From a virus, in IMG/VR virus record IMGVR_UViG_3300010883_000516, positions 1-23,073 of that record: DNA of 23,073 nucleotides; one strand, written 5' to 3'. Shown here one piece after another: positions 2,716 through 11,592 of this stretch (the stretch's first letter is position 1; every line of letters begins with the position of its first letter). The notes beneath the pieces were generated by a model. That model searched no databases. It was not told where the DNA came from and saw only the letters and a program-made list of their open reading frames with translations. The position numbers and the translations under genes were made by a program.

Positions 2716-4348
2716 TAGAGTTAAAAATTTTAAGAATTTTTTATATTTGTGTTGGAAACATTTAAATTTACCAGAACCAACACCTATACAATACGATATA
2801 GCAGATTACCTACAAGCACCTCATAAAAGACTTGTAATTGAAGCTTTTCGAGGAGTGGGAAAGTCTTGGATTACATCCGCTTTTGTTTGTCATCAATTAT
2901 TATTAAATCCACAACGTAATATACTTGTAGTATCAGCTTCTAAAAGTAGAGCAGATGATTTTAGTACATTTACACAAAGATTAATAAGTGAAATGCCTAT
3001 GTTACAACATTTACAACCTAGAAATAACCAAAGACAATCTAAGGTTAGTTTTGATGTAGCTCCGGCTACAGCTTCTCACGCACCCTCAGTAAAATCTATG
3101 GGTATAACTGGCCAACTTACTGGGTCAAGAGCTGATTTAATTATTGCTGATGACGTAGAATCTGCAAATAACTCACAAACTCAATTAATGAGAGACAGAT
3201 TAGGTGAGACAGTAAAAGAATTTGATGCCATTATTAAACCTGAGATTGGCAGAATTATATTTTTAGGGACACCACAAACTGAAATGTCATTATATAATGA
3301 TTTAGATGAACGTGGTTTTAAGACTAGAATATGGACAGCTCTATATCCTAGTAAAGCACAGACTATTGGTTATGGTCATAAGATAGCACCCATCATTGCT
3401 GACGTTGAAGACAATGAAGGTAAACCTACAGACCCTAAAAGATTTGATGAAGTTGATTTATTAGAACGTATGTCATCTTATGGTAAGTCAGGATTTAACT
3501 TACAATTCATGTTAGACACAACTATGTCTGATGCTAATAGATACCCACTTAAACTTAACGATTTAATTGTACTATCAGGTAGTTCAACTTGGAAAGAAGC
3601 CCCAGCAAAATTACAATGGGCATCTTCACCAGAACAAATTAAAGCGGTAGACCCTGATATTCCTAATGTAGGTTTAAAAGGTGACTATTACGTAGCACCC
3701 ATGTACACCAGCCCTGAGTTTACATCTTTTGAGGGTGCTGTAATGTCTATTGACCCTAGTGGTCGAGGTGAAGATAAGACAGCGTATGCGGTGCTTAAAA
3801 TGCTTCATGGAGTGTTGTATTTGACTGCTGTAGGTTCACTAGATGGTGGTTATTCAGATGATACTATGGGAAGATTAGCACAAATTGCTAAAAAACAAAA
3901 TGTAAACTATATAGTTATAGAGAGTAACTTTGGTGATGGCATGGCTACACAATTATTAAAACCTATGATGGCCAGTGTTCACCCCTGTGAAATAGAAGAA
4001 GTAAGACATAATATTCAAAAAGAAAAACGTATAATAGATACTTTAGAACCATTAATGAATAGCCACAGGTTAGTCGTTGATGATTTATTAATTAAAGAAG
4101 ATTTTAAACTTGAGCCTGACCATCAGTTGTTTAGACAAATGACAAGGTTAACAAGAGACAAAGGAGCTTTAAGACATGATGACCAAATTGATGCTTTGGC
4201 TATTGCCGCTAATTATTGGGTGGAGCGTATGGACAGAGACCAAACCTTATCTTACCAACAACACAAAGAAGACTTATTGGATAGAGACCTTGAAAAATTC
4301 ATGGAAACTACCATTGGTCGTAAACCTAAAATGGACAGATTTATATAA
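2708..4348 (+). CDS. Terminase large subunit (T7 gp19-like)
   Basis: Packaging motor ATPase and nuclease that pumps DNA into the prohead and cuts the concatemer. Numbered from ATG 2708 (546 residues; a TTG three codons upstream is possible): Walker A FRGVGKS at 47-53, Walker B LIIADD at 144-149, a coupling motif LGTPQTE near 186, then the RNase H-like nuclease with Asp in SIDPSGRGEDK (D349), Glu in YIVIESN (E405) and Asp in HDDQIDAL (D492, D495). All motor and nuclease residues are present. T7 gp19 is 586 residues, so this is slightly short. The eight-base overlap with the small subunit indicates coupled translation. Confidence 0.97.
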   Translation: MDNRVKNFKNFLYLCWKHLNLPEPTPIQYDIADYLQAPHKRLVIEAFRGVGKSWITSAFVCHQLLLNPQRNILVVSASKSRADDFSTFTQRLISEMPMLQHLQPRNNQRQSKVSFDVAPATASHAPSVKSMGITGQLTGSRADLIIADDVESANNSQTQLMRDRLGETVKEFDAIIKPEIGRIIFLGTPQTEMSLYNDLDERGFKTRIWTALYPSKAQTIGYGHKIAPIIADVEDNEGKPTDPKRFDEVDLLERMSSYGKSGFNLQFMLDTTMSDANRYPLKLNDLIVLSGSSTWKEAPAKLQWASSPEQIKAVDPDIPNVGLKGDYYVAPMYTSPEFTSFEGAVMSIDPSGRGEDKTAYAVLKMLHGVLYLTAVGSLDGGYSDDTMGRLAQIAKKQNVNYIVIESNFGDGMATQLLKPMMASVHPCEIEEVRHNIQKEKRIIDTLEPLMNSHRLVVDDLLIKEDFKLEPDHQLFRQMTRLTRDKGALRHDDQIDALAIAANYWVERMDRDQTLSYQQHKEDLLDRDLEKFMETTIGRKPKMDRFI

Positions 4349-4349
4349 T

Positions 4350-4871
4350 ATGGATGACACTACTAACAAGATAGATATAAGAAACCACAAGTACATGAAT
4401 ACAGTTCGAAATCATATTAAAGAAAAAGAAAGCTACAGACTGGAACCATATCAATTAGAATATAAAGGTGATATGGAAACAAAAGTTAAAGAAACTTTTT
4501 TTACAGGTGGTTATGGTCATAAAATGCTTCCCGGAGAGGTTGCACCTACTGACAGAGCTGGGTGGGACATATTTTTTGACAAAGATTTTACAAAAGCTAT
4601 GAATGGGGCTTACAGATTAACTAAAAATTCTGATATGTCACCTGAAGCGTTTGGTGAATTAACAAAAATGATATATCAAATGGGAGAAACTAACATAAGT
4701 GGGTGGTCTAATACACTAAAATATTTAAGAGAAGGCAACTATGAAGAGGCTGGTAGGGAAGTTTTAAGAGGAAAATCAGAGGGAACTGTGAGTAAATGGT
4801 CTTTACAAACACCTGATAGAGCTAATGAGACCTCAGAAATGCTTATAAGTCTAGGTAATAATAGTAAGTAA
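4350..4871 (+). CDS. GH24 lysozyme, phage endolysin
   Basis: 173 residues from ATG 4350, right after the terminase stop. An upstream in-frame start at 4176 would sit inside the terminase gene and is rejected. The second half matches the T4 lysozyme pattern: IYQMGETNISGWSNTLKYL (109-126), then WSLQTPDRA (150-158), compare QMGETG..GF.NSL and W..QTPNRA. The N-terminal catalytic region is recognisable: ESYRL with the likely catalytic Glu27, and TGGYGH at 52-57. No signal peptide is visible, so it should need a holin. It would cleave the glycan strands of peptidoglycan. T7 has no GH24 enzyme here, and with the degenerate amidase at 11167 this is probably the working lysis enzyme. Confidence 0.88.
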   Translation: MDDTTNKIDIRNHKYMNTVRNHIKEKESYRLEPYQLEYKGDMETKVKETFFTGGYGHKMLPGEVAPTDRAGWDIFFDKDFTKAMNGAYRLTKNSDMSPEAFGELTKMIYQMGETNISGWSNTLKYLREGNYEEAGREVLRGKSEGTVSKWSLQTPDRANETSEMLISLGNNSK

Positions 4872-4897
4872 TATATACATATAGGGTAACCTTTGTA

Positions 4898-4917
4898 TAT
4901 CTTATACGGGTACCTTG
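4898..4917 (-). promoter_or_regulatory. Inverted copy of the phage promoter-like motif
   Basis: On the minus strand this reads CAAGGTACCCGTATAAGATA. It matches the motif seen upstream of the RNA polymerase and ssDNA-binding genes (TAAAGTACCCNTAGTAGATA) at 15 of 19 defined positions. If active it would transcribe leftwards, antisense to the endolysin and terminase genes, which is unexpected in a genome coded on one strand. It may instead be an origin or end-associated element. Confidence 0.4.
4904..4915. repeat. 12-bp inverted repeat, left arm
   Basis: ATACGGGTACCT here is the exact reverse complement of AGGTACCCGTAT at 5234-5245. The arms lie about 320 bases apart and bracket the GC-rich, repeat-bearing part of the non-coding region. 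The shared core GTACCC is also the core of the candidate phage promoters. Confidence 0.8.
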
Positions 4918-5127
4918 ATATTTTAACAAAAAATCTGAGAGGGTATATCGATACACACGGCGGTGCGCTTCCCCCATAGACATCAACTGTGGCGCTGCAG
5001 GCATACCCCTATTAAAAGTATATATGCGGTCATTGATTGGTATATATAGGCAAACTAAAGGCCTTGCGCCGGCTGGGGGTGGACAAAATGTTTCAATGCG
5101 TGTGTGTGCTAGTCTGTTTTTTTAGTA

Positions 5128-5186
5128 ACGCATAGCCATACGCATAGCCATACTATATGTAGTAGGTGCGCAGACGCATAGCCATA
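5128..5186. repeat. Three copies of CGCATAGCCATA
   Basis: Copies lie at 5129-5140, 5141-5152 (directly adjacent) and 5175-5186; the first and third are preceded by A. A related CACATAG follows at 5188. T7 has arrays of a short repeat beside its terminal repeats, so these may mark the inside edge of the terminal repeat or bind terminase. An iteron-like origin role is an alternative. Confidence 0.8.
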
Positions 5187-5233
5187 CACATAGTAACACA
5201 CTAGATGTGGTGTATATAACCTGCTAAGCACAT

Positions 5234-5245
5234 AGGTACCCGTAT
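5234..5245. repeat. 12-bp inverted repeat, right arm (weak promoter-like motif)
   Basis: AGGTACCCGTAT is the exact reverse complement of 4904-4915. On the + strand the surrounding bases (ATAGGTACCCGTATTAGTAT, 5232-5251) match the phage promoter motif at about 12 of 19 defined positions. It could therefore be a weak rightward phage promoter near the left genome end, comparable in position to phi-OL of T7. Confidence 0.55.
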
Positions 5246-5421
5246 TAGTATTCAAGGGTTGACCAGTGTATAGCTGTGTGTGGCTGTGTTCCTGTGGTAC
5301 TACTTGAGGTAGTGTCTAAGGGGTGCTGTGTGTAGTTATCATTATTAGTATATATATGCCTATAAGTAGGGGCTATATTGTTTAGACATTATATTGATTA
5401 TTATTTATTTTATTTAATGGG

Positions 5422-5450
5422 TTGACATCAATGTTTACTTGCTTTATAGC
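5422..5450 (+). promoter_or_regulatory. Sigma70-like early promoter
   Basis: A perfect -35 box TTGACA (5422-5427) is followed after exactly 17 bases by TATAGC (5445-5450), a four-of-six match to TATAAT. Transcription would start near 5457, upstream of the folded leader, the first hammerhead ribozyme and the early genes. This is where T7 keeps the host-polymerase promoters that drive class I genes. It is the best host promoter I can see in the 817-base gap. Confidence 0.6.
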
Positions 5451-5508
5451 TTCAATAAGACTGTTTTTTGTTCATTTTTTAAATCTCTTTAATAAAAAAA
5501 ATGTAGTG

Positions 5509-5560
5509 CCACCGGGCAGATTTAAAGCAGTAAATTTGTCGATAGTTTCTAACCGGCTGG
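5509..5560 (+). ncRNA. Folded element in the early leader, identity unknown
   Basis: An outer stem pairs CCACCGG (5509-5515) with CCGGCTGG (5553-5560), with one bulged C (5557). Inside it a nine-pair hairpin runs 5516-5524 with 5531-5539 (two G-U pairs, loop AAGCAG). Bases 5540-5552 stay unpaired. It lies between the predicted early start site (about 5457) and the ribozyme cut at 5623, so cleavage would release it in a leader RNA of about 165 bases. I could not match it to a known riboswitch or ribozyme. Confidence 0.45.
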
Positions 5561-5613
5561 AAAACCCACATTCGAGAAATAAGCGGGCTTTATGAGGGCT
5601 GTTACGGATTTCT

Positions 5614-5675
5614 TTTGTTTGTCTCAAAATATTTTATTTTGACTGATGAAGCGCAGGAACGCTGAAACAAACAAA
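5614..5675 (+). ncRNA. Hammerhead ribozyme 1 (type III)
   Basis: Complete hammerhead. Stem III is nine pairs, 5614-5622 with 5667-5675. The cleavage triplet is GUC (5621-5623), cut after 5623. Stem I is seven perfect pairs, 5624-5630 with 5636-5642, loop ATTTT. The conserved CTGATGA is at 5643-5649. Stem II is AGCG/CGCT (5650-5653 with 5660-5663), loop CAGGAA, and the conserved GAAA is at 5664-5667. Every core position fits the consensus. The 3' strand of stem III runs into the ribosome site CGGAG (5676-5680) of the gene at 5689, so self-cleavage would free that translation leader. All bases needed for catalysis are seen; activity itself is inferred. Confidence 0.93.
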
Positions 5676-5682
5676 CGGAGCC
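5668..5682 (+). promoter_or_regulatory. Translation leader CAAACAAACGGAGCC
   Basis: The same 15 bases recur at 6177-6191, and a shortened form CAAACAATGGAGC at 6738-6750. In each case it lies directly after a hammerhead and 5-8 bases before a start codon. It combines an unstructured CAAA-rich stretch with a GGAG ribosome site. In ribozyme 1 its first part doubles as the 3' strand of stem III. Confidence 0.7.
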
Positions 5683-5688
5683 TATAAC

Positions 5689-6099
5689 ATGCTAAAAAAA
5701 CATATAATAAGAACTACTAAGAATTTTTATACACTAACAAGTGATGACACGAAGTTAGCTGTCTATTATTCTTACGCTACGCCGGTGGCTATTAAATGCC
5801 AGTTAACAAATACATACTTTGTGGCACAAAACCAATGGAGCAGCACAACAGGCAAGCATCTAACATGGGTTGATGGCGGTGGCGCACATAAAAAAACTAG
5901 ATTAAATCCTGCAGATTGGACAGCAGCAAAACTGTTGTTTGGTGTTCATAGTAAAGTGTTTAATCAAATTGATTTTTTGTCGCCTACGTTGAGCAAAATA
6001 TGCGATTTAATTGCAGATGTTGGAACTACAAAAAACAATGGTTTCACTTTTAGTGAGTTAAGTGAACCCACAGATATAACCAACGAACTTTGGAAGTAA
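5689..6099 (+). CDS. Early protein 1, unknown (DUF8033-like appearance)
   Basis: 136 residues and the first early gene, preceded by the CGGAG leader. There are no membrane segments. The N-terminal half contains AVYYSYATPVAIKC, then YFVAQNQWSSTTGKHLTWVDGG (about residues 25-65). This is a pattern I associate with small proteins of phages and archaea grouped as DUF8033; the assignment is from memory. The C-terminal half is helical (LSKICDLIADVGT). Function unknown. In T7 this position carries host-takeover proteins. It should form a monocistronic mRNA once ribozymes 1 and 2 have cut (5624-6144). Confidence 0.8.
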   Translation: MLKKHIIRTTKNFYTLTSDDTKLAVYYSYATPVAIKCQLTNTYFVAQNQWSSTTGKHLTWVDGGGAHKKTRLNPADWTAAKLLFGVHSKVFNQIDFLSPTLSKICDLIADVGTTKNNGFTFSELSEPTDITNELWK

Positions 6100-6110
6100 C
6101 AACACAAAAA

Positions 6111-6172
6111 GACCGAAACTAGCCGGCGTATAATCTGGCTAGTATACCATTTATAATGGTACTGATGAGGTT
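6111..6172 (+). ncRNA. Hammerhead ribozyme 2 (type II, stem II open)
   Basis: The order of core parts is permuted. Stem II 5' strand GACC (6111-6114), GAAA (6115-6118), stem III CTAGCC/GGCTAG (6119-6124 with 6137-6142, plus A6118-U6143), 12-base loop. Cleavage triplet GUA (6142-6144), cut after 6144. Stem I is seven pairs (6145-6151 with 6155-6161), loop TAT. CTGATGA is at 6162-6168 and stem II 3' strand GGTT at 6169-6172. Stem II is only four pairs including one G-U, so it may be slow alone. It lies between the genes ending at 6099 and starting at 6196. Confidence 0.9.
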
Positions 6173-6195
6173 AACACAAACAAACGGAGCCAGTA

Positions 6196-6477
6196 ATGAT
6201 AAAATACGTAATACATGCCAAAAAATGGAGAGACAAACCAAACGGCAATACATACCACGCAACAACAATACTAAATACACAAAATAATTTAATGATTTCT
6301 AGTCCAATGAAATATGGATATGGAGACCAATTTATTCAATCTGCTAGTGATGTAATGGTAGCAAAAAAATGGATTGATAAACCTTTGAAAAGTTTAGATT
6401 ATTTAAATATTCATATGATTGTTGAAGATAATTGTAAAAAAAAACATGTTGAAGCGTGGGGTGCTAGCTATGGTTAA
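6196..6477 (+). CDS. Early protein 2, unknown
   Basis: 93 residues with ribosome site CGGAGCC five bases or so upstream of ATG 6196. The N-terminus MIKYVIHAKKWRDKPNGNTYHA looks like a short beta-strand followed by a basic loop; the middle has MKYGYGDQFIQSASDVM and the end CKKKHVEAWGASYG. No transmembrane or known catalytic motif is visible. Proteins with a K-W-x-D-K-x-N-G-N-T-Y-H start occur in marine phages and may be DNA- or host-binding, but I cannot name a family. It overlaps the next gene by eight bases. Its mRNA should begin at the ribozyme 2 cut. Confidence 0.78.
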   Translation: MIKYVIHAKKWRDKPNGNTYHATTILNTQNNLMISSPMKYGYGDQFIQSASDVMVAKKWIDKPLKSLDYLNIHMIVEDNCKKKHVEAWGASYG

Positions 6478-6664
6478 ATTTAACACATTAATTAAGTTCA
6501 AAGATAATACAGTTATGTATCAAAGAGATAGCAACGAAGCTTTTACAAATGCTAAGTTGAAAGGTTTAAACAAGCCAGCTGACGTGATGTACATGTATTC
6601 TAAAGATAATAAAGATTTCTTTAAAAATATTATGGATAGGAAGTATATCAGCTTCAACCAATAA
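6470..6664 (+). CDS. Early protein 3, unknown
   Basis: 64 residues from ATG 6470, which overlaps the stop of the previous gene (6475-6477). An in-frame start at 6419 would lie deep inside that gene and is unlikely. The product is basic and polar (MVKFNTLIKFKDNTVMYQRD at the start, DFFKNIMDRKYISFNQ at the end) without membrane segments. Translation is probably coupled to the upstream gene. Ribozyme 3 begins within ten bases of its stop. Function unknown. Confidence 0.65.
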   Translation: MVKFNTLIKFKDNTVMYQRDSNEAFTNAKLKGLNKPADVMYMYSKDNKDFFKNIMDRKYISFNQ

Positions 6665-6671
6665 CAAAAAA

Positions 6672-6733
6672 AACTGAAACTAGCCGGCATATAATCTGGC
6701 TAGTATACCATTTATAATGGTACTGATGAAGTT
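6672..6733 (+). ncRNA. Hammerhead ribozyme 3 (type II, stem II open)
   Basis: Near-copy of ribozyme 2, offset by 561 bases. Stem II is AACT (6672-6675) with AGTT (6730-6733), four Watson-Crick pairs. GAAA is at 6676-6679. Stem III is CTAGCC/GGCTAG (6680-6685 with 6698-6703). Triplet GUA (6703-6705), cut after 6705. Stem I runs 6706-6712 with 6716-6722, and CTGATGA is at 6723-6729. Relative to ribozyme 2 the pair next to the core changes from C-G to U-A and the end pair from G-U to A-U. Both changes keep stem II paired, which is direct evidence of selection for the fold. Confidence 0.92.
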
Positions 6734-6757
6734 AACACAAACAATGGAGCAAACAAC

Positions 6758-7117
6758 ATGGCAAAAATAACTATTAATGTTACCGATTTTGACATTAAAA
6801 ATGGAATACCTGAAGATTGCGCAAGGTGTGCAATTGCTACAGCGTTAAGAAGACAAATAACAAATCCAATGTTAATAAATGTGAAGCTGGATATGGCGAC
6901 AGCTGCAAAAAAACAATCTACAAATGCGTTGGATTATATGCCATATTTTGAAATAAATGCAAAACAATACTATCAAGACGCATTTACAAAAGCAAAAGAA
7001 ATACGAAAGTTTATTTTTGATTATGATAAGTCAAAAAGAACTCAACAATATAAATACATACCTTTAAAACCTTTTAATTTTGTTTTAGATTTAAACAAAT
7101 TTGTAGAGAGGTCTTAA
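6758..7117 (+). CDS. Early protein 4, unknown (Cys-containing)
   Basis: 119 residues, preceded by TGGAGC and ATG 6758. It begins MAKITINVTDFDIKNGIPED followed by CARCAIATALRR. The segment G-I-P-x-D-C-x-x-C-x-I-A-x-A-L is a recurring signature of small phage proteins that I have seen without a function attached. The CxxC could bind a metal or be redox active. The C-terminal half is Lys/Tyr-rich with alternating hydrophobics (YIPLKPFNFVLDLNKFV). No membrane segment. Its stop overlaps the next start by one base (7117). Confidence 0.75.
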   Translation: MAKITINVTDFDIKNGIPEDCARCAIATALRRQITNPMLINVKLDMATAAKKQSTNALDYMPYFEINAKQYYQDAFTKAKEIRKFIFDYDKSKRTQQYKYIPLKPFNFVLDLNKFVERS

Positions 7118-7308
7118 TGCACGAACATCTTGAAATAATACTTATTGTATTAGGTGGTTTAATTAGTGGATTAATTTTAATGCCTAAAAAACCAAAAAAA
7201 CCTGATACATTTAATGAAAGCAATCCGTTTAGTTTATCAATTAGACTAAGCGGCGAAGAAATAAGATGTTTTAATCACATAATACAAAAAGGAGATAAAA
7301 AAAAATGA
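7117..7308 (+). CDS. Small single-span membrane protein, early region
   Basis: 63 residues. Residues 1-22 hold a transmembrane segment (LEIILIVLGGLISGLILM), followed by a Lys/Pro-rich stop-transfer stretch (PKKPKKPD) and a soluble tail ending QKGDKKK. The start shares the A of the preceding TAA, and the stop overlaps the next ATG (ATGA, 7305-7308). It is the first of three consecutive envelope-targeted small genes before the RNA polymerase gene. Early membrane proteins in phages often act in superinfection exclusion or host takeover, which is inference here. Confidence 0.68.
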   Translation: MHEHLEIILIVLGGLISGLILMPKKPKKPDTFNESNPFSLSIRLSGEEIRCFNHIIQKGDKKK

Positions 7309-7427
7309 GTATCTTTAAATATGTAATAATAATTCTAATCGCATGTGTTTTGGCATGGTTTGGAATGGAGTATGCAATGAATAGATTGATTGAAGGCATA
7401 TTTCAAACAGCGCTGTTATATAATTAA
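7305..7427 (+). CDS. 40-residue membrane protein, early region
   Basis: ATG 7305 follows a strong GGAG (7291-7294), and the gene ends TAA 7425-7427. The product begins MSIFKYVIIILIACVLAWFG and continues with an amphipathic segment (MEYAMNRLIEGIFQTALLYN). It overlaps both neighbours by one to four bases (ATGA at the start, TAATG at the end), the pattern of translationally coupled genes. One transmembrane span is clear. Function unknown. Confidence 0.6.
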   Translation: MSIFKYVIIILIACVLAWFGMEYAMNRLIEGIFQTALLYN

Positions 7428-7624
7428 TGAAATATATATTAGTATTTTTGCTGTTTACTGGTTGTGCAGAACTCTTAATGATTTCTAGCACAACTGGAGT
7501 AATTGTATCACAAGCGCCATTAATTAAAGCCTACAATGGCGCAGATATGTTGACAATTATGTCTACAAAACAAGACATAAAAACAACTATTTACAAAAAA
7601 CTTAAAACCCCAAAAAAAGACTAA
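7427..7624 (+). CDS. Small lipoprotein, early region
   Basis: 65 residues. The N-terminus MKYILVFLLFTGC is a textbook lipoprotein signal: basic start, hydrophobic core, lipobox LFTGC with Cys13 as the lipidated residue. Position +2 is Ala, which favours outer-membrane sorting. The mature part (SSTTGVIVSQAPLIKAYNG, then DMLTIMSTKQDIKTTIYKKL) is short and mixed. Early expression makes a lysis role unlikely and a surface-exclusion role plausible, but nothing in the sequence proves it. Its stop codon is part of the promoter motif preceding the RNA polymerase gene. Confidence 0.75.
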   Translation: MKYILVFLLFTGCAELLMISSTTGVIVSQAPLIKAYNGADMLTIMSTKQDIKTTIYKKLKTPKKD

Positions 7625-7641
7625 AGTACCCTTAGTAGATA
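7622..7641 (+). promoter_or_regulatory. Candidate phage RNA polymerase promoter upstream of its own gene
   Basis: TAAAGTACCCTTAGTAGATA differs by one base from the 20-mer at 10136-10155; a weaker version is at 20003-20022. All three lie in intergenic gaps upstream of gene blocks and none resembles a host promoter, which is what promoters of a T7-type polymerase look like. Here it would give the polymerase positive feedback on its own transcription. Confidence 0.7.
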
Positions 7642-7684
7642 CGAAAACATAACCCACAAACATATATAGGAGTTAGTTACACAC

Positions 7685-10132
7685 ATGGTAAAATTAATTG
7701 AAGCAGTACATACATACAAAGACGAGTTAGCACACGAAATTGAAATGAAAACTTTAGGTGCTAAAAGAACAAATACAAGATTGCACTCACACATAGAACG
7801 AGGTGAGGAATCTGTTACATCTTATGGTAAAGTTATGGTGGCTAATACTATAAGACCATTAGCATTAGAAATTGCTAAATGGATAACTGAACAATCACAA
7901 AAAACTATTGGTAAGCCTGCCATAGCTTTCATTAAAATGTGCGAGGTTGAGCCTGAAATATTAGCGCTCATAACTGGCAAACACATCATAAACACAATCA
8001 CACAAAGCAAACCTTTAACTGCAACTTGTATTGCACTTGGTGGTAAAATAGAAACTGAGATTTCTTTAAAAAATTTCAAATTACTTAACCCAGAGTTATA
8101 CCAAACAGTTAAAAATGATTTAGACAAACGTAGTTTTAACTACACTTATAAAAGACGTAAACTTAGGGAAAGCTCTAAGCGAGACAATGTAATGACTTGG
8201 GAAGAGTGGACAACACCTACTAAATTACACGTAGGACTTAGGCTGGTTGAATTAATGATTTATTCAACAGGAATGATTGAGATTGGCACTGAGACTATAC
8301 GGCATAAAAAAGCTAAGATAATTAAACAAACAGACAAAACAAGGGAGTGGATTAAAAATAGAAATAGTTTTAATGAATTATTAAACCCTGAATACTTACC
8401 AACAGTTATGCCACCTAAAATGTGGTCGACTGTAACTGGTGGTGGCTATTGGACTAAAGAATTACCTGAACTTGAACTGGTTAAACAAAAAAACAAATTG
8501 TTTAAAAAGGAATTAGAAAACTTTGATATGCCTGAAGTTTATAGTGCAGTTAATTCTATGCAGAACACACCATTTAAAATTAATAATTTTATCTTAAAAG
8601 TTATGCAAGAAGCGTGGGACAGAGGTTTAGCTGTTGGTGGAATGCCACCTAACACTAATCTTGATATACCAAACAAACCACATGACATAGAAACAAACCC
8701 GGAATCTCGTAAAGCATGGAAGATGAAAGCTGTTATGGCTCACACAGAAAACGCTAGAATGTTTTCTAAAAGATTATTATATGCAAAAATAATATGGTTG
8801 GGTCAAAAGTTTTTAAATTTTGCAACTATTTACTTTCCATTACAATTGGATTTTAGAGGCAGAGCTTATGCTGTTCCGGCATTTTTAAATTATCAATCAA
8901 TTAATGGAGCAAAAGCTTTATTATCGTTTGCGCATGGCAAAGCAATTACTAAAGAAAATAAAGGTGATTACTGGTTAGCTGTGCATGGTGCTAACATGTT
9001 TGGTGAAGATAAAATATCTTTTGCAGAACGTGTTCAATGGACTGAAGACAATGAAGCTATGATTGTAGCATGTGCGGCAGACCCTTTAACTAACAGACAA
9101 TGGGAAGCTGCTTCTAACGCATTTCAATTTTTAGCATTTTGTGATGAGTGGTCTAGGTTTTTAAAAGAAGGAGATGGTTTTATTTCAACTATACCAGTTA
9201 ATGTGGATGGTTCTTGTAATGGTCTTCAACTTTATTCTTTAATGCTTAGAGATAAAACAGCTGGTAAGTTAGTTAATTTAACCCCTTCTGCAAAACCACA
9301 AGACATTTATCAATTAGTTGCTGACGCAGTTATTGAACAATTAAAAATAGATGTTACTGAAGGCAAACCTTACGCTCAAACATGGTTAGATTTTGGAGTT
9401 AAACGTTCAACAACTAAACGTAGTATTATGACTATTTGTTATGGTTCAACAAGATATTCATGCACTGAGTTTGTTATTGAAGATTTAACAAAACGTAAAG
9501 ATAAAGGTGAACACAATCCTTTTGCAAATGATTTGTTTAAACCAGCAAGTTATTTAGCAGCAGTAATATGGGATAGCATTGGTGACAATTTAGCATCTGC
9601 AAGAGTAGGTATGAATTATTTACAAACAATTGCAAGAATAGTTGCTAAAGAACAGCTGCCAGTCCATTGGGTTACTCCAGTTGGATTTCCAGTTTATCAA
9701 TCATATCCACAAATGAAGTCTAAAAGAGTTAAAGCTATGTTAATGGGCGAAGTCATTAAACCTAGAATTAACACTGAGACTGATTTAACAGATAAATTGC
9801 GTATGGGAAATGGTGTGGCACCTAATTTGGTTCATTCCGTAGATTCTGCTGCAATGATGAAAACTGTTAACATAGCTCACAAAAATGGTATTACTAATTT
9901 CTGTAACGTACATGATAGTTTTGGTACTACTGCTGGTGATGTTGAGACACTTAACAAATCTATAAGAGAAGCATTTATTGAAATGTTTACAAACAATGAC
10001 GTATTGTTAAATTTTAGAAATGATGTGTTAAAACAATTACCTGTTGAGTTACATTCTAAATTACCTGAAGTTCCCGAAAAAGGTGATTTAGACATACAAC
10101 AACTTCGGGAAAGTGAGTTCTTTTTTGCGTAA
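7685..10132 (+). CDS. Phage single-subunit DNA-directed RNA polymerase (T7 gp1-like)
   Basis: 815 residues, compared with 883 in T7; most of the difference is in the N-terminal domain. All catalytic motifs are present: LDFRGRAYAVP (389-398), motif A VDGSCNGLQ with Asp508, motif B RSTTKRSIMTICYG with Lys578 and Tyr586, and motif C VHDSFG with Asp744. The protein ends in EFFFA, equivalent to the FAFA foot of T7 that sits at the active site. The specificity-loop region (about 660-700) begins HWVTPVGFPVYQSY as in T7, then diverges (KSKRVKAMLMGEVIKPRINT), as expected for a different promoter. GGAG at 7669 is rather far from ATG 7685. It transcribes the middle and late genes. Confidence 0.99.
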   Translation: MVKLIEAVHTYKDELAHEIEMKTLGAKRTNTRLHSHIERGEESVTSYGKVMVANTIRPLALEIAKWITEQSQKTIGKPAIAFIKMCEVEPEILALITGKHIINTITQSKPLTATCIALGGKIETEISLKNFKLLNPELYQTVKNDLDKRSFNYTYKRRKLRESSKRDNVMTWEEWTTPTKLHVGLRLVELMIYSTGMIEIGTETIRHKKAKIIKQTDKTREWIKNRNSFNELLNPEYLPTVMPPKMWSTVTGGGYWTKELPELELVKQKNKLFKKELENFDMPEVYSAVNSMQNTPFKINNFILKVMQEAWDRGLAVGGMPPNTNLDIPNKPHDIETNPESRKAWKMKAVMAHTENARMFSKRLLYAKIIWLGQKFLNFATIYFPLQLDFRGRAYAVPAFLNYQSINGAKALLSFAHGKAITKENKGDYWLAVHGANMFGEDKISFAERVQWTEDNEAMIVACAADPLTNRQWEAASNAFQFLAFCDEWSRFLKEGDGFISTIPVNVDGSCNGLQLYSLMLRDKTAGKLVNLTPSAKPQDIYQLVADAVIEQLKIDVTEGKPYAQTWLDFGVKRSTTKRSIMTICYGSTRYSCTEFVIEDLTKRKDKGEHNPFANDLFKPASYLAAVIWDSIGDNLASARVGMNYLQTIARIVAKEQLPVHWVTPVGFPVYQSYPQMKSKRVKAMLMGEVIKPRINTETDLTDKLRMGNGVAPNLVHSVDSAAMMKTVNIAHKNGITNFCNVHDSFGTTAGDVETLNKSIREAFIEMFTNNDVLLNFRNDVLKQLPVELHSKLPEVPEKGDLDIQQLRESEFFFA

Positions 10133-10135
10133 GCA

Positions 10136-10155
10136 TAAAGTACCCATAGTAGATA
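10136..10155 (+). promoter_or_regulatory. Candidate phage RNA polymerase promoter before ssb
   Basis: TAAAGTACCCATAGTAGATA, 19 of 20 identical to the copy at 7622. It begins three bases after the RNA polymerase stop codon and ends 21 bases before the ssDNA-binding protein start. It would drive the replication block. Confidence 0.72.
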
Positions 10156-10176
10156 TAACACAAGGAGAATAATATC

Positions 10177-10794
10177 ATGGCAAAGAACAATTACGTTAAG
10201 ATTGTAAGTCCTGAAGGAATCAGCCAGTATGCATGGTTAACACAACCTGATACTAAGTTTGACGAATCTGGACATTACAAAGTAAATCTTATCATTCCTA
10301 CAATTGAAGCAAATGCTTTAATTAAACAGATTGATGAAGAAATGAAAAAGAGCATGGCTACCGCTCAAGAGAGCAATCAAGGTAAAACGATAAAAGCAGC
10401 TAACGCTCCATATGACGCAGAAATAGTAGATGGAAAACCTTCTGGTAATACTATTTTTAAATTTAAAAGAAAAGCACAAATTATTGCTAAAGATGGAAAA
10501 GTAATTCCATTTAAAGTAGCATTGTTTGACAGTGCTGGCGTACCATTAAAAGATGTTAATGTATGGTCAGGTAGTAAAATGAAAGCAAGTGCTGAACTTG
10601 TTCATTGGTTTACTGCAATGGCTGGTGCTGGAGTATCATTAAGACTAAGAGCGGTGCAAGTAACCGAATTAGTAGAAGGTACTAGCGGCAATAAAGCAGA
10701 AGGTTTTGGCTTTAACGAAGTTAAAGGTGGATATAAAGCAGAGGAAACTACAGAAGATGTACAACCACAGACCGAAAACAAAGCTGACTTCTAG
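10177..10794 (+). CDS. Single-stranded DNA-binding protein (T7 gp2.5-like)
   Basis: 205 residues (T7 gp2.5 is 232). It coats single-stranded DNA and recruits polymerase and primase-helicase. The start has AAGGAG upstream of ATG 10177. The N-terminal region forms the OB fold (YVKIVSPEGISQYAWLTQPD to KVNLIIPT, about 7-42), and the centre has IFKFKRKAQIIAKDGKVIPFK (around 98-117). The last 20 residues are acidic and end in Phe (NKADF), the tail that in T7 gp2.5 contacts polymerase. Position directly after the polymerase gene and before endonuclease I is as in T7. It overlaps the next gene by 38 bases. Confidence 0.93.
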   Translation: MAKNNYVKIVSPEGISQYAWLTQPDTKFDESGHYKVNLIIPTIEANALIKQIDEEMKKSMATAQESNQGKTIKAANAPYDAEIVDGKPSGNTIFKFKRKAQIIAKDGKVIPFKVALFDSAGVPLKDVNVWSGSKMKASAELVHWFTAMAGAGVSLRLRAVQVTELVEGTSGNKAEGFGFNEVKGGYKAEETTEDVQPQTENKADF

Positions 10795-11170
10795 TCAGAT
10801 TGGTTTATTTAAGGGCTTTAGGTCAGGCTTAGAAGTAGCGATTGCTTCCGAGCTTGACAGCCACCATGTAGAGTATCAATTTGAAAAAACTAAACTAAGT
10901 TATACTAAGCCAGAAAAAATACATACATACACCCCCGATTTTTATTTAACTAAAAAGAATATATACATTGAAACTAAAGGTTATTTTACTACACAAGACA
11001 GACAAAAAATGCGTCTTATTAAAGAACAGCACCCAACATTAGATATTCGATTTATTTTTAGTAACTCAAGACAACGTATTAGTAAAAAGTCAAAAACAAC
11101 ATATGGCATGTGGTGTCAGAAGTATGGATTTCAATACACTGACAAACATGTCCCAAAGGAGTGGTTATGA
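10757..11170 (+). CDS. Endonuclease I, Holliday-junction resolvase (T7 gp3-like)
   Basis: 137 residues from ATG 10757; T7 gp3 is 149. It resolves branched DNA and helps degrade host DNA for nucleotides. The four catalytic residues of the family are in place: Glu26 in RSGLEVAI, Asp61 in TYTPDF, and Glu72/Lys74 in YIETKG (T7 E20, D55, E65, K67). A basic N-terminus and a C-terminal segment FIFSNSRQRISKKSKTTYGMWC also match. The start lies 38 bases inside the ssDNA-binding gene; a TTG at 10706 is in frame but deeper. The stop overlaps the next start (ATGA at 11167). Confidence 0.95.
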   Translation: MYNHRPKTKLTSSQIGLFKGFRSGLEVAIASELDSHHVEYQFEKTKLSYTKPEKIHTYTPDFYLTKKNIYIETKGYFTTQDRQKMRLIKEQHPTLDIRFIFSNSRQRISKKSKTTYGMWCQKYGFQYTDKHVPKEWL

Positions 11171-11592
11171 GTAACACACGCATAGATACAAAATATATTG
11201 TGGTACATTCAAGTCAAACAACTCCACAAGAAAATTTAGATGTGAAAGATTTAGATATACAACACCGAAAAGAAGGTTTGTTTTCTTGTAAATTTCACAA
11301 AATAATAAAAAAAGATGGCACTGTGCAAGATGGTAGAGATATTATGCTTGCTGGAACTCACATAGATAAAACAGTGAAACTGTCTAATAAAAATTCCATA
11401 GGTATATGTCTAATAGGTGGACATAATACTAGCGGACAACCTGATTGTAATTTTACTTTAAAACAATATCAAAGTTTAGCGACTTTGGTTGCAAATTTAA
11501 AATTAACTTATGACCAAGTTGAGATTGTTGGACACAGAGATGTGTCTGGCTCCCTATGTCCACAGTTTGATGTAAAAGAATTGTTGGCATAG
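11167..11592 (+). CDS. T7 lysozyme homologue (amidase fold) with altered catalytic residues
   Basis: 141 residues; T7 gp3.5 is 151. AAAGGAG lies six bases before ATG 11167. T7 gp3.5 is both an N-acetylmuramoyl-L-alanine amidase and an inhibitor of its RNA polymerase. The zinc ligands are kept: His14 (YIVVHSSQ), His123 and Cys131 (VGHRDVSGSLCP), with the same spacing from His to Cys as T7. The two residues described as catalytic in T7 are changed: Tyr46 is Phe43 (FSCKFHKII) and Lys128 is Ser129. The fold is therefore clear but amidase activity is doubtful. A separate GH24 endolysin lies at 4350, so this protein may serve mainly as a polymerase regulator. Confidence 0.92.
   Translation: MSNTRIDTKYIVVHSSQTTPQENLDVKDLDIQHRKEGLFSCKFHKIIKKDGTVQDGRDIMLAGTHIDKTVKLSNKNSIGICLIGGHNTSGQPDCNFTLKQYQSLATLVANLKLTYDQVEIVGHRDVSGSLCPQFDVKELLA

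Follow-up and report, generated by a model that had tools for sequence, protein, structure and literature searches.

The DNA analysed here (the window) is a stretch of 23,073 bases, one strand, corresponding to positions 1-23,073 of the IMG/VR virus record IMGVR_UViG_3300010883_000516. Among cultured SAR11 phages, HTVC031P, HTVC142P and Eistla EXVC025P have RNA polymerases with 84-85% identity to that of the window; all three are classed as Autographiviridae, Pelagivirus, and the window shares their annotated gene order through ribonucleotide reductase and the head proteins. According to the sequence of its closest RNA polymerases and the shared layout of early and replication genes, the window phage is a Pelagivirus-like autographivirus. 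A scan of bacterial genomes with the same polymerase found no relatives. Three candidate self-cleaving RNAs of the hammerhead class follow a non-coding leader of 0.7 kb and precede the RNA polymerase gene, a location equivalent to the T7 early region. The features of the locus are as follows:

5614..5675, + strand: type III hammerhead, predicted cut after C5623 (scanner, Rfam type III model, covariance model); stem III 5614-5621/5668-5675, stem I 5624-5642, core CUGAUGA 5643-5649, stem II 5650-5663, GAAA 5664-5667
5676..5688, + strand: leader with the Shine-Dalgarno sequence (CGGAGCC) of early gene 1 (sequence, folding prediction)
5689..6099, + strand: early gene 1, 136 aa (phrog_5643, E 5e-6)
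6111..6172, + strand: type II hammerhead, predicted cut after A6144 (scanner, alignment, covariance model); stem II 6111-6114/6169-6172, GAAA 6115-6118, stem III 6119-6142, stem I 6145-6161, core 6162-6168
6196..6477, + strand: early gene 2, 93 aa (phrog_6246)
6473..6664, + strand: early gene 3, 63 aa (open reading frame)
6672..6733, + strand: second type II hammerhead, predicted cut after A6705 (scanner, covariance model)
6758..7117, + strand: early gene 4, 119 aa (phrog_19191), first gene of the third predicted unit
7117..7624, + strand: small early genes 5-7 (7117-7308, 7305-7427 and 7427-7624; open reading frames)
7685..10132, + strand: single-subunit RNA polymerase (phrog_414)

Within the non-coding leader, at 5128-5187, the sequence ACGCATAGCCATAC occurs three times without mismatch, two of the copies overlapping in tandem, against a chance expectation of 0.08; these repeats are possibly part of a terminal repeat or of an origin.

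Identification of three hammerhead ribozymes

A strict scanner requiring CUGANGA, GAAA, a UH cleavage triplet and three stems, in all three permutations, was run on both strands of the window. It returned exactly three matches, all on the + strand, whereas the chance expectation is about 0.02 matches per window (2 loose and 0 strong matches in total over both strands of 100 dinucleotide shuffles). These are the sites, with cuts at 5623, 6144 and 6705, that a previous sequence-only reading of this DNA had proposed. All three elements carry CUGAUGA and GAAA, with GUC as the NUH triplet in the type III element and GUA in both type II elements, and they form the three stems of the class with 8/4/8 and 7/4/8 pairs in stems I/II/III, a pairing supported by covariation (see below). 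The two type II copies, starting at 6111 and 6672, are 95% identical over 78 bases, and one of their differences is compensatory, changing C-G to U-A in stem II.

The Rfam type III model (RF00008, Hammerhead_3) matched the first element with 37.7 bits (E 5.6e-6), the gathering score of this model being 48.5. Neither type II element of the window was listed by Rfam at E values up to 10, and at the gathering threshold nothing was returned in the window or in 14 related loci, ribozyme-bearing or not; for this reason, our own scanner and covariance models were used. The first element has the same core, stems and cut site as RF00008, but it falls under the gathering threshold and has distinct loops, with loop II being CAGNA in most relatives. 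Stem II of the window type II copies has 4 pairs and is predicted to be formed in 11-15% of the secondary-structure ensemble. Inspection by eye of these two elements found a 3-pair match between loop I and the tail and no pseudoknot of at least 4 pairs; most type II hammerheads described by Perreault et al. have 4 or more (PMC3088659). By their sequence and predicted structure, the window elements are members of the hammerhead class.

Distribution of hammerhead arrays in related phages

The window RNA polymerase brought in 49 viral loci, and the initial set comprised 55 loci (449 kb), a few of them duplicates of the window or of contigs already included. This set contained 112 hammerheads, all on the sense strand, whereas shuffled sets gave 0.1 matches each and the reversed sequence gave none; the single minus-strand entry corresponded to one contig fetched in the opposite orientation. 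Most related phages carried an array of 1-5 hammerheads in the corresponding early region, among them HTVC031P (4 elements, with predicted cuts after 40986, 296, 1333 and 2148 of MH598800), HTVC142P (2), Eistla (3), HTVC168P (3), HTVC019P (2), HTVC021P (1) and HTVC109P (three, plus one cut off by the end of the record). In whole cultured genomes, hammerheads were located only upstream of the RNA polymerase gene; HTVC021P has one weak match (E 0.007) in its tail region, which was put down to chance. Covariance-model searches of whole records added HTVC022P, HTVC201P and HTVC131P (1 each), the uncultured S35-C6 (3) and Roseobacter phage CRP-125 (a type III element). In the same kind of search, no element reached a convincing score in T7, LUZ100, HTVC120P, HTVC134P, HTVC119P or HTVC200P. 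The elements are therefore not essential to the group, since T7 and several relatives (HTVC120P, HTVC134P, HTVC119P and HTVC200P) do without them. A pattern scan of IMG/VR gave 42 contigs and brought the total to 123 distinct elements.

Other phage contigs also carried such elements. In a different phage (31 kb contig L081), four type I hammerheads lie on the minus strand at 8535-11428, with an anti-restriction gene (phrog_7245, E 6e-54) between the first two, an arrangement resembling that of the anti-restriction gene ardA, which lies in one of the cleaving clusters, in an Agrobacterium prophage (PMC3088659). Four other contigs of 16.6-62 kb (L088, L083, L086 and L104) had type I hammerheads, with as many as three in succession; two of these contigs (L088 and L086) also have a groEL gene. 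A type III-like hammerhead was found at 3314-3364 of a 242 kb virus contig (L090). A probable decayed type III hammerhead with a broken GAAA core was observed in HTVC121P (661-718; L077:262-319). In addition, pelagiphage early regions contain repeated copies of the 10-mer GACTAGACGG, in most cases with a C after it, and this 10-mer also lies inside stem III of some hammerheads (L060:1174, 1216 and 1437; L061:2337, 2754 and 2989; L058:9333; L059:2208); it is absent from the window.

Covariation and conserved loops

Distinct elements of each type were aligned with MAFFT, with shuffles and alignments in which one strand had been slid as controls. In type II elements, 99.7% of the alignment cells were paired and 14 of the 20 pairs had changed on both sides, with a covariation score of 0.63 (0.20 in shuffled alignments). 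The corresponding values were 98.3%, 12 of 19 pairs and 0.55 (0.15 shuffled) for type III, and 97.6%, 12 of 21 pairs and 0.45 (0.15 shuffled) for type I; slid-strand controls did not exceed 0.13. Because a core and minimal pairing are preconditions of a scanner match, the pair percentages lean towards the model; the counts are also not independent, as many of the loci are closely related. Among relatives, loop II was conserved as well (UUANU-like for type I, CAGNA for type III), which is suggestive of a docking partner and of a retained tertiary contact.

Relationship between ribozyme permutation and gene position

Feature tables of four annotated cultured phages were used to count early intergenic gaps longer than 60 nt, setting aside long leaders before the first gene. 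A hammerhead was present in all nine of these gaps and in none of 19 downstream of the RNA polymerase gene (Fisher p 1.4e-7). The usual order of the array was III-(III)-I-II-I, and in all 100 ordered pairs taken from 42 loci, type III stood ahead of type I or type II, a rule that the III-II-II order of the window obeys. This conserved arrangement in relatives argues that the array is under selection.

The position of each permutation relative to the adjoining genes was also regular: types I and II start at the stop codon of the upstream gene, and type III adjoins the next ribosome-binding site. An open frame of at least 30 codons ended between -22 and +7 bases relative to the ribozyme start in 64/67 type I and 21/21 type II elements (85/88 together) and in 3/32 type III elements; random early positions passed this test at a rate of 26%. 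The stop codon was a UAA inside stem I (G-UAA-CA) in 33 of the 67 type I elements. In the window and the annotated phages, 13-26 bases separated type III elements from the following start codon, and type III cuts fell 57-88 bases upstream of that codon. After cleavage, a type III ribozyme would stay on the downstream RNA and a type I ribozyme on the upstream RNA, with type II being split between both, so that each permutation is placed where its structure would remain on an mRNA end.

Predicted effect of cleavage on ribosome-binding sites

Folding predictions gave an unpaired probability for the gene 1 Shine-Dalgarno sequence of 0.13 in the uncut and 0.55 in the cut RNA. For 28 type III elements, mean predicted accessibility rose from 0.36 to 0.60 upon cleavage, with only 18 of the 28 being less accessible than a control with shuffled upstream sequence; no change was predicted for types I and II. 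A general gating of ribosome-binding sites by all the ribozymes was thus rejected, and gating would be a property of some type III members, the window element included.

These predictions bear on an alternative in which the ribozymes cleave but serve mainly in regulation, either by removing a leader that hides the ribosome-binding site or, when ribosomes stopping in the type I stem block cleavage, by coupling translation and cutting. The predicted opening of the gene 1 site, the frequent stop codon within stem I of type I elements, and the precedent of adhE and lambda cIII, in which RNase III cleavage opens the ribosome-binding site (PMC5371410), are in line with this possibility. We regard it nevertheless as doubtful in view of the unchanged accessibility at types I and II and of the effect being confined to part of type III.

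Proposed processing of the early transcript

As a main function, we consider it quite likely that the hammerheads cut the early polycistronic transcript co-transcriptionally into end-capped mRNAs, acting as functional analogues of the T7 RNase III sites. These viruses would thus probably chop their own early mRNA instead of relying on a host enzyme. Host polymerase would transcribe from the leader through all three sites and the early genes; sigma-70 promoter scans upstream of the first ribozyme gave nothing above shuffles, and no early promoter could be placed above chance. Each ribozyme would fold and cut soon after its synthesis; other clusters of this class have been shown to cleave, both in the test tube and in E. 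coli (PMC3088659). A type III element upstream of a ribosome-binding site would keep the ribozyme on the 5′ end of the mRNA, a type I element at a stop codon would keep it on the 3′ end of the preceding mRNA, and a type II element would divide its hairpins between both products.

In the window, the predicted cuts delimit units of 521 and 561 bases, containing gene 1 and genes 2-3, respectively, followed by a third unit from gene 4 to the RNA polymerase gene, and re-reading of the region and its gene list agreed with the sequence-only reading on these lengths and contents. That reading had also assigned hairpins to both RNA ends at each type II cut, and only these cuts would leave a hairpin on both sides. 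At the first element, a type III, the upstream product would lack a 3′ hairpin and the downstream product would keep the whole ribozyme. The first unit would therefore carry gene 1 with a 5′-OH, two 5′ hairpins and the stem III hairpin shortly past the stop codon; the second would hold genes 2-3 between two hairpins, and the third would begin with a hairpin and run through gene 4 into the RNA polymerase gene. The type III cut is also predicted to free the gene 1 ribosome-binding site. 5′-OH ends are poor substrates of RNase E, and 3′ hairpins slow 3′ exonucleases, which makes stabilisation of the mRNAs by the hammerhead ends plausible: gene-sized mRNAs with 5′-OH hairpin ends and 3′ hairpins directly past the stop codon would resist decay, and neighbouring early genes would be uncoupled.

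It is unlikely that the elements are mobile or recombinogenic cassettes whose repeats let phages swap early genes by homologous recombination, cleavage being a by-product. Genes 2-3 are indeed flanked by two nearly identical 78-base copies, and early gene content differs between relatives with a common array. Recombination, however, does not need a catalytic core, and the covariation holds the structure while the sequence diverges; moreover, orthologous positions retain their own ribozyme type and sequence. Many intact repeats with a dead core would favour this explanation, but only one clearly decayed element was noticed, that of HTVC121P.

Hammerhead products have 5′-OH and 2′,3′-cyclic phosphate ends that can be ligated, and the elements could accordingly make new RNA species, either ligated or circular molecules or small RNAs set free between two cuts. 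We find this very unlikely, given that the predicted cuts bracket whole genes and not short spacers, and that Perreault et al. sought such products in their own clusters and found none (PMC3088659).

Finally, ordinary processing hairpins (RNase III sites or terminators) resembling hammerheads by chance are hardly credible, in spite of lying where T7 has its RNase III sites, since the stems, of up to about 8-9 pairs, fall short of the usual length of RNase III substrates, the stems covary around a catalytic core that stays the same, and there is no U-run.

Comparison with known systems and implications

The self-processing reading extends known systems on two sides. RNase III is the enzyme that processes the early RNAs of T7 (Dunn and Studier 1973, as cited in PMC5371410), for instance at site R1.1 (PMC6121014). 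The window phage belongs to the same phage supergroup, and the predicted cuts similarly fall between early genes, which the host polymerase transcribes first, the phage RNA polymerase acting later. In T7, with no hammerhead detected by covariance models, a host enzyme acts on hairpins, whereas here the cutting would be done by catalytic RNA. The longest ribozyme stems have 8-9 pairs, short of the long double-stranded hairpin of a T7-type RNase III site. A folding comparison of long local hairpins did not separate the T7 early region from that of this phage and was not used. The likeness to the T7 sites is one of position and presumed role only. A reading of the elements as terminators was discarded, no terminator-like site (hairpin with a U-run) being found on the + strand of 4800-7800.

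On the other hand, hammerhead clusters around prophage genes were described by Perreault et al. (2011), who demonstrated cleavage in vitro for three of the clusters and in E. coli for one; in their proposal, the clusters divide phage transcripts into mRNAs the length of a gene or an operon (PMC3088659). The arrays reported here share with those clusters the ribozyme class and the presence of several copies around one gene or short block. In the prophages the flanked genes vary, while here a conserved array occupies the early operon of T7-group phages, with a fixed permutation order and positions tied to stop codons and ribosome-binding sites. In the open-access literature searched (most subscription papers lying outside it), we came across no description of hammerheads from pelagiphages or from any other member of the Autographiviridae. 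The earlier statement that no phage early operon of this kind had been described therefore holds for T7-group early operons within the literature searched, but has to be qualified by the prophage clusters (PMC3088659). Measured against that literature, it is new that T7-group phages have a conserved array in the early operon, that the array is confined to the early region, and that a rule connects permutation with position; the hammerhead class and the prophage clusters were already known.

Altogether, the presence of the three hammerheads was confirmed and extended to relatives, and self-processing, the core of the proposed interpretation, is likely on the comparative evidence. We give about even weight to the broader proposal that RNase III processing has been replaced in SAR11 phages by a conserved array in which position sets the permutation, type III capping the 5′ end (and being able to gate the ribosome-binding site), type I capping the 3′ end at the stop codon and type II capping both. 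Standard annotation misses these ribozymes, as the Rfam gathering threshold gave none in the records searched. The role of bacterial and phage hammerheads has been a standing question since 2011, and a conserved array with a positional rule in phages of SAR11, a dominant group of ocean bacteria, makes this question directly testable, the array occurring in cultured SAR11 phages. If the proposal is true, a DNA phage would process its own mRNA by catalytic RNA where T7 uses a host enzyme, and the position rule would provide a biological reason for the existence of three hammerhead permutations.
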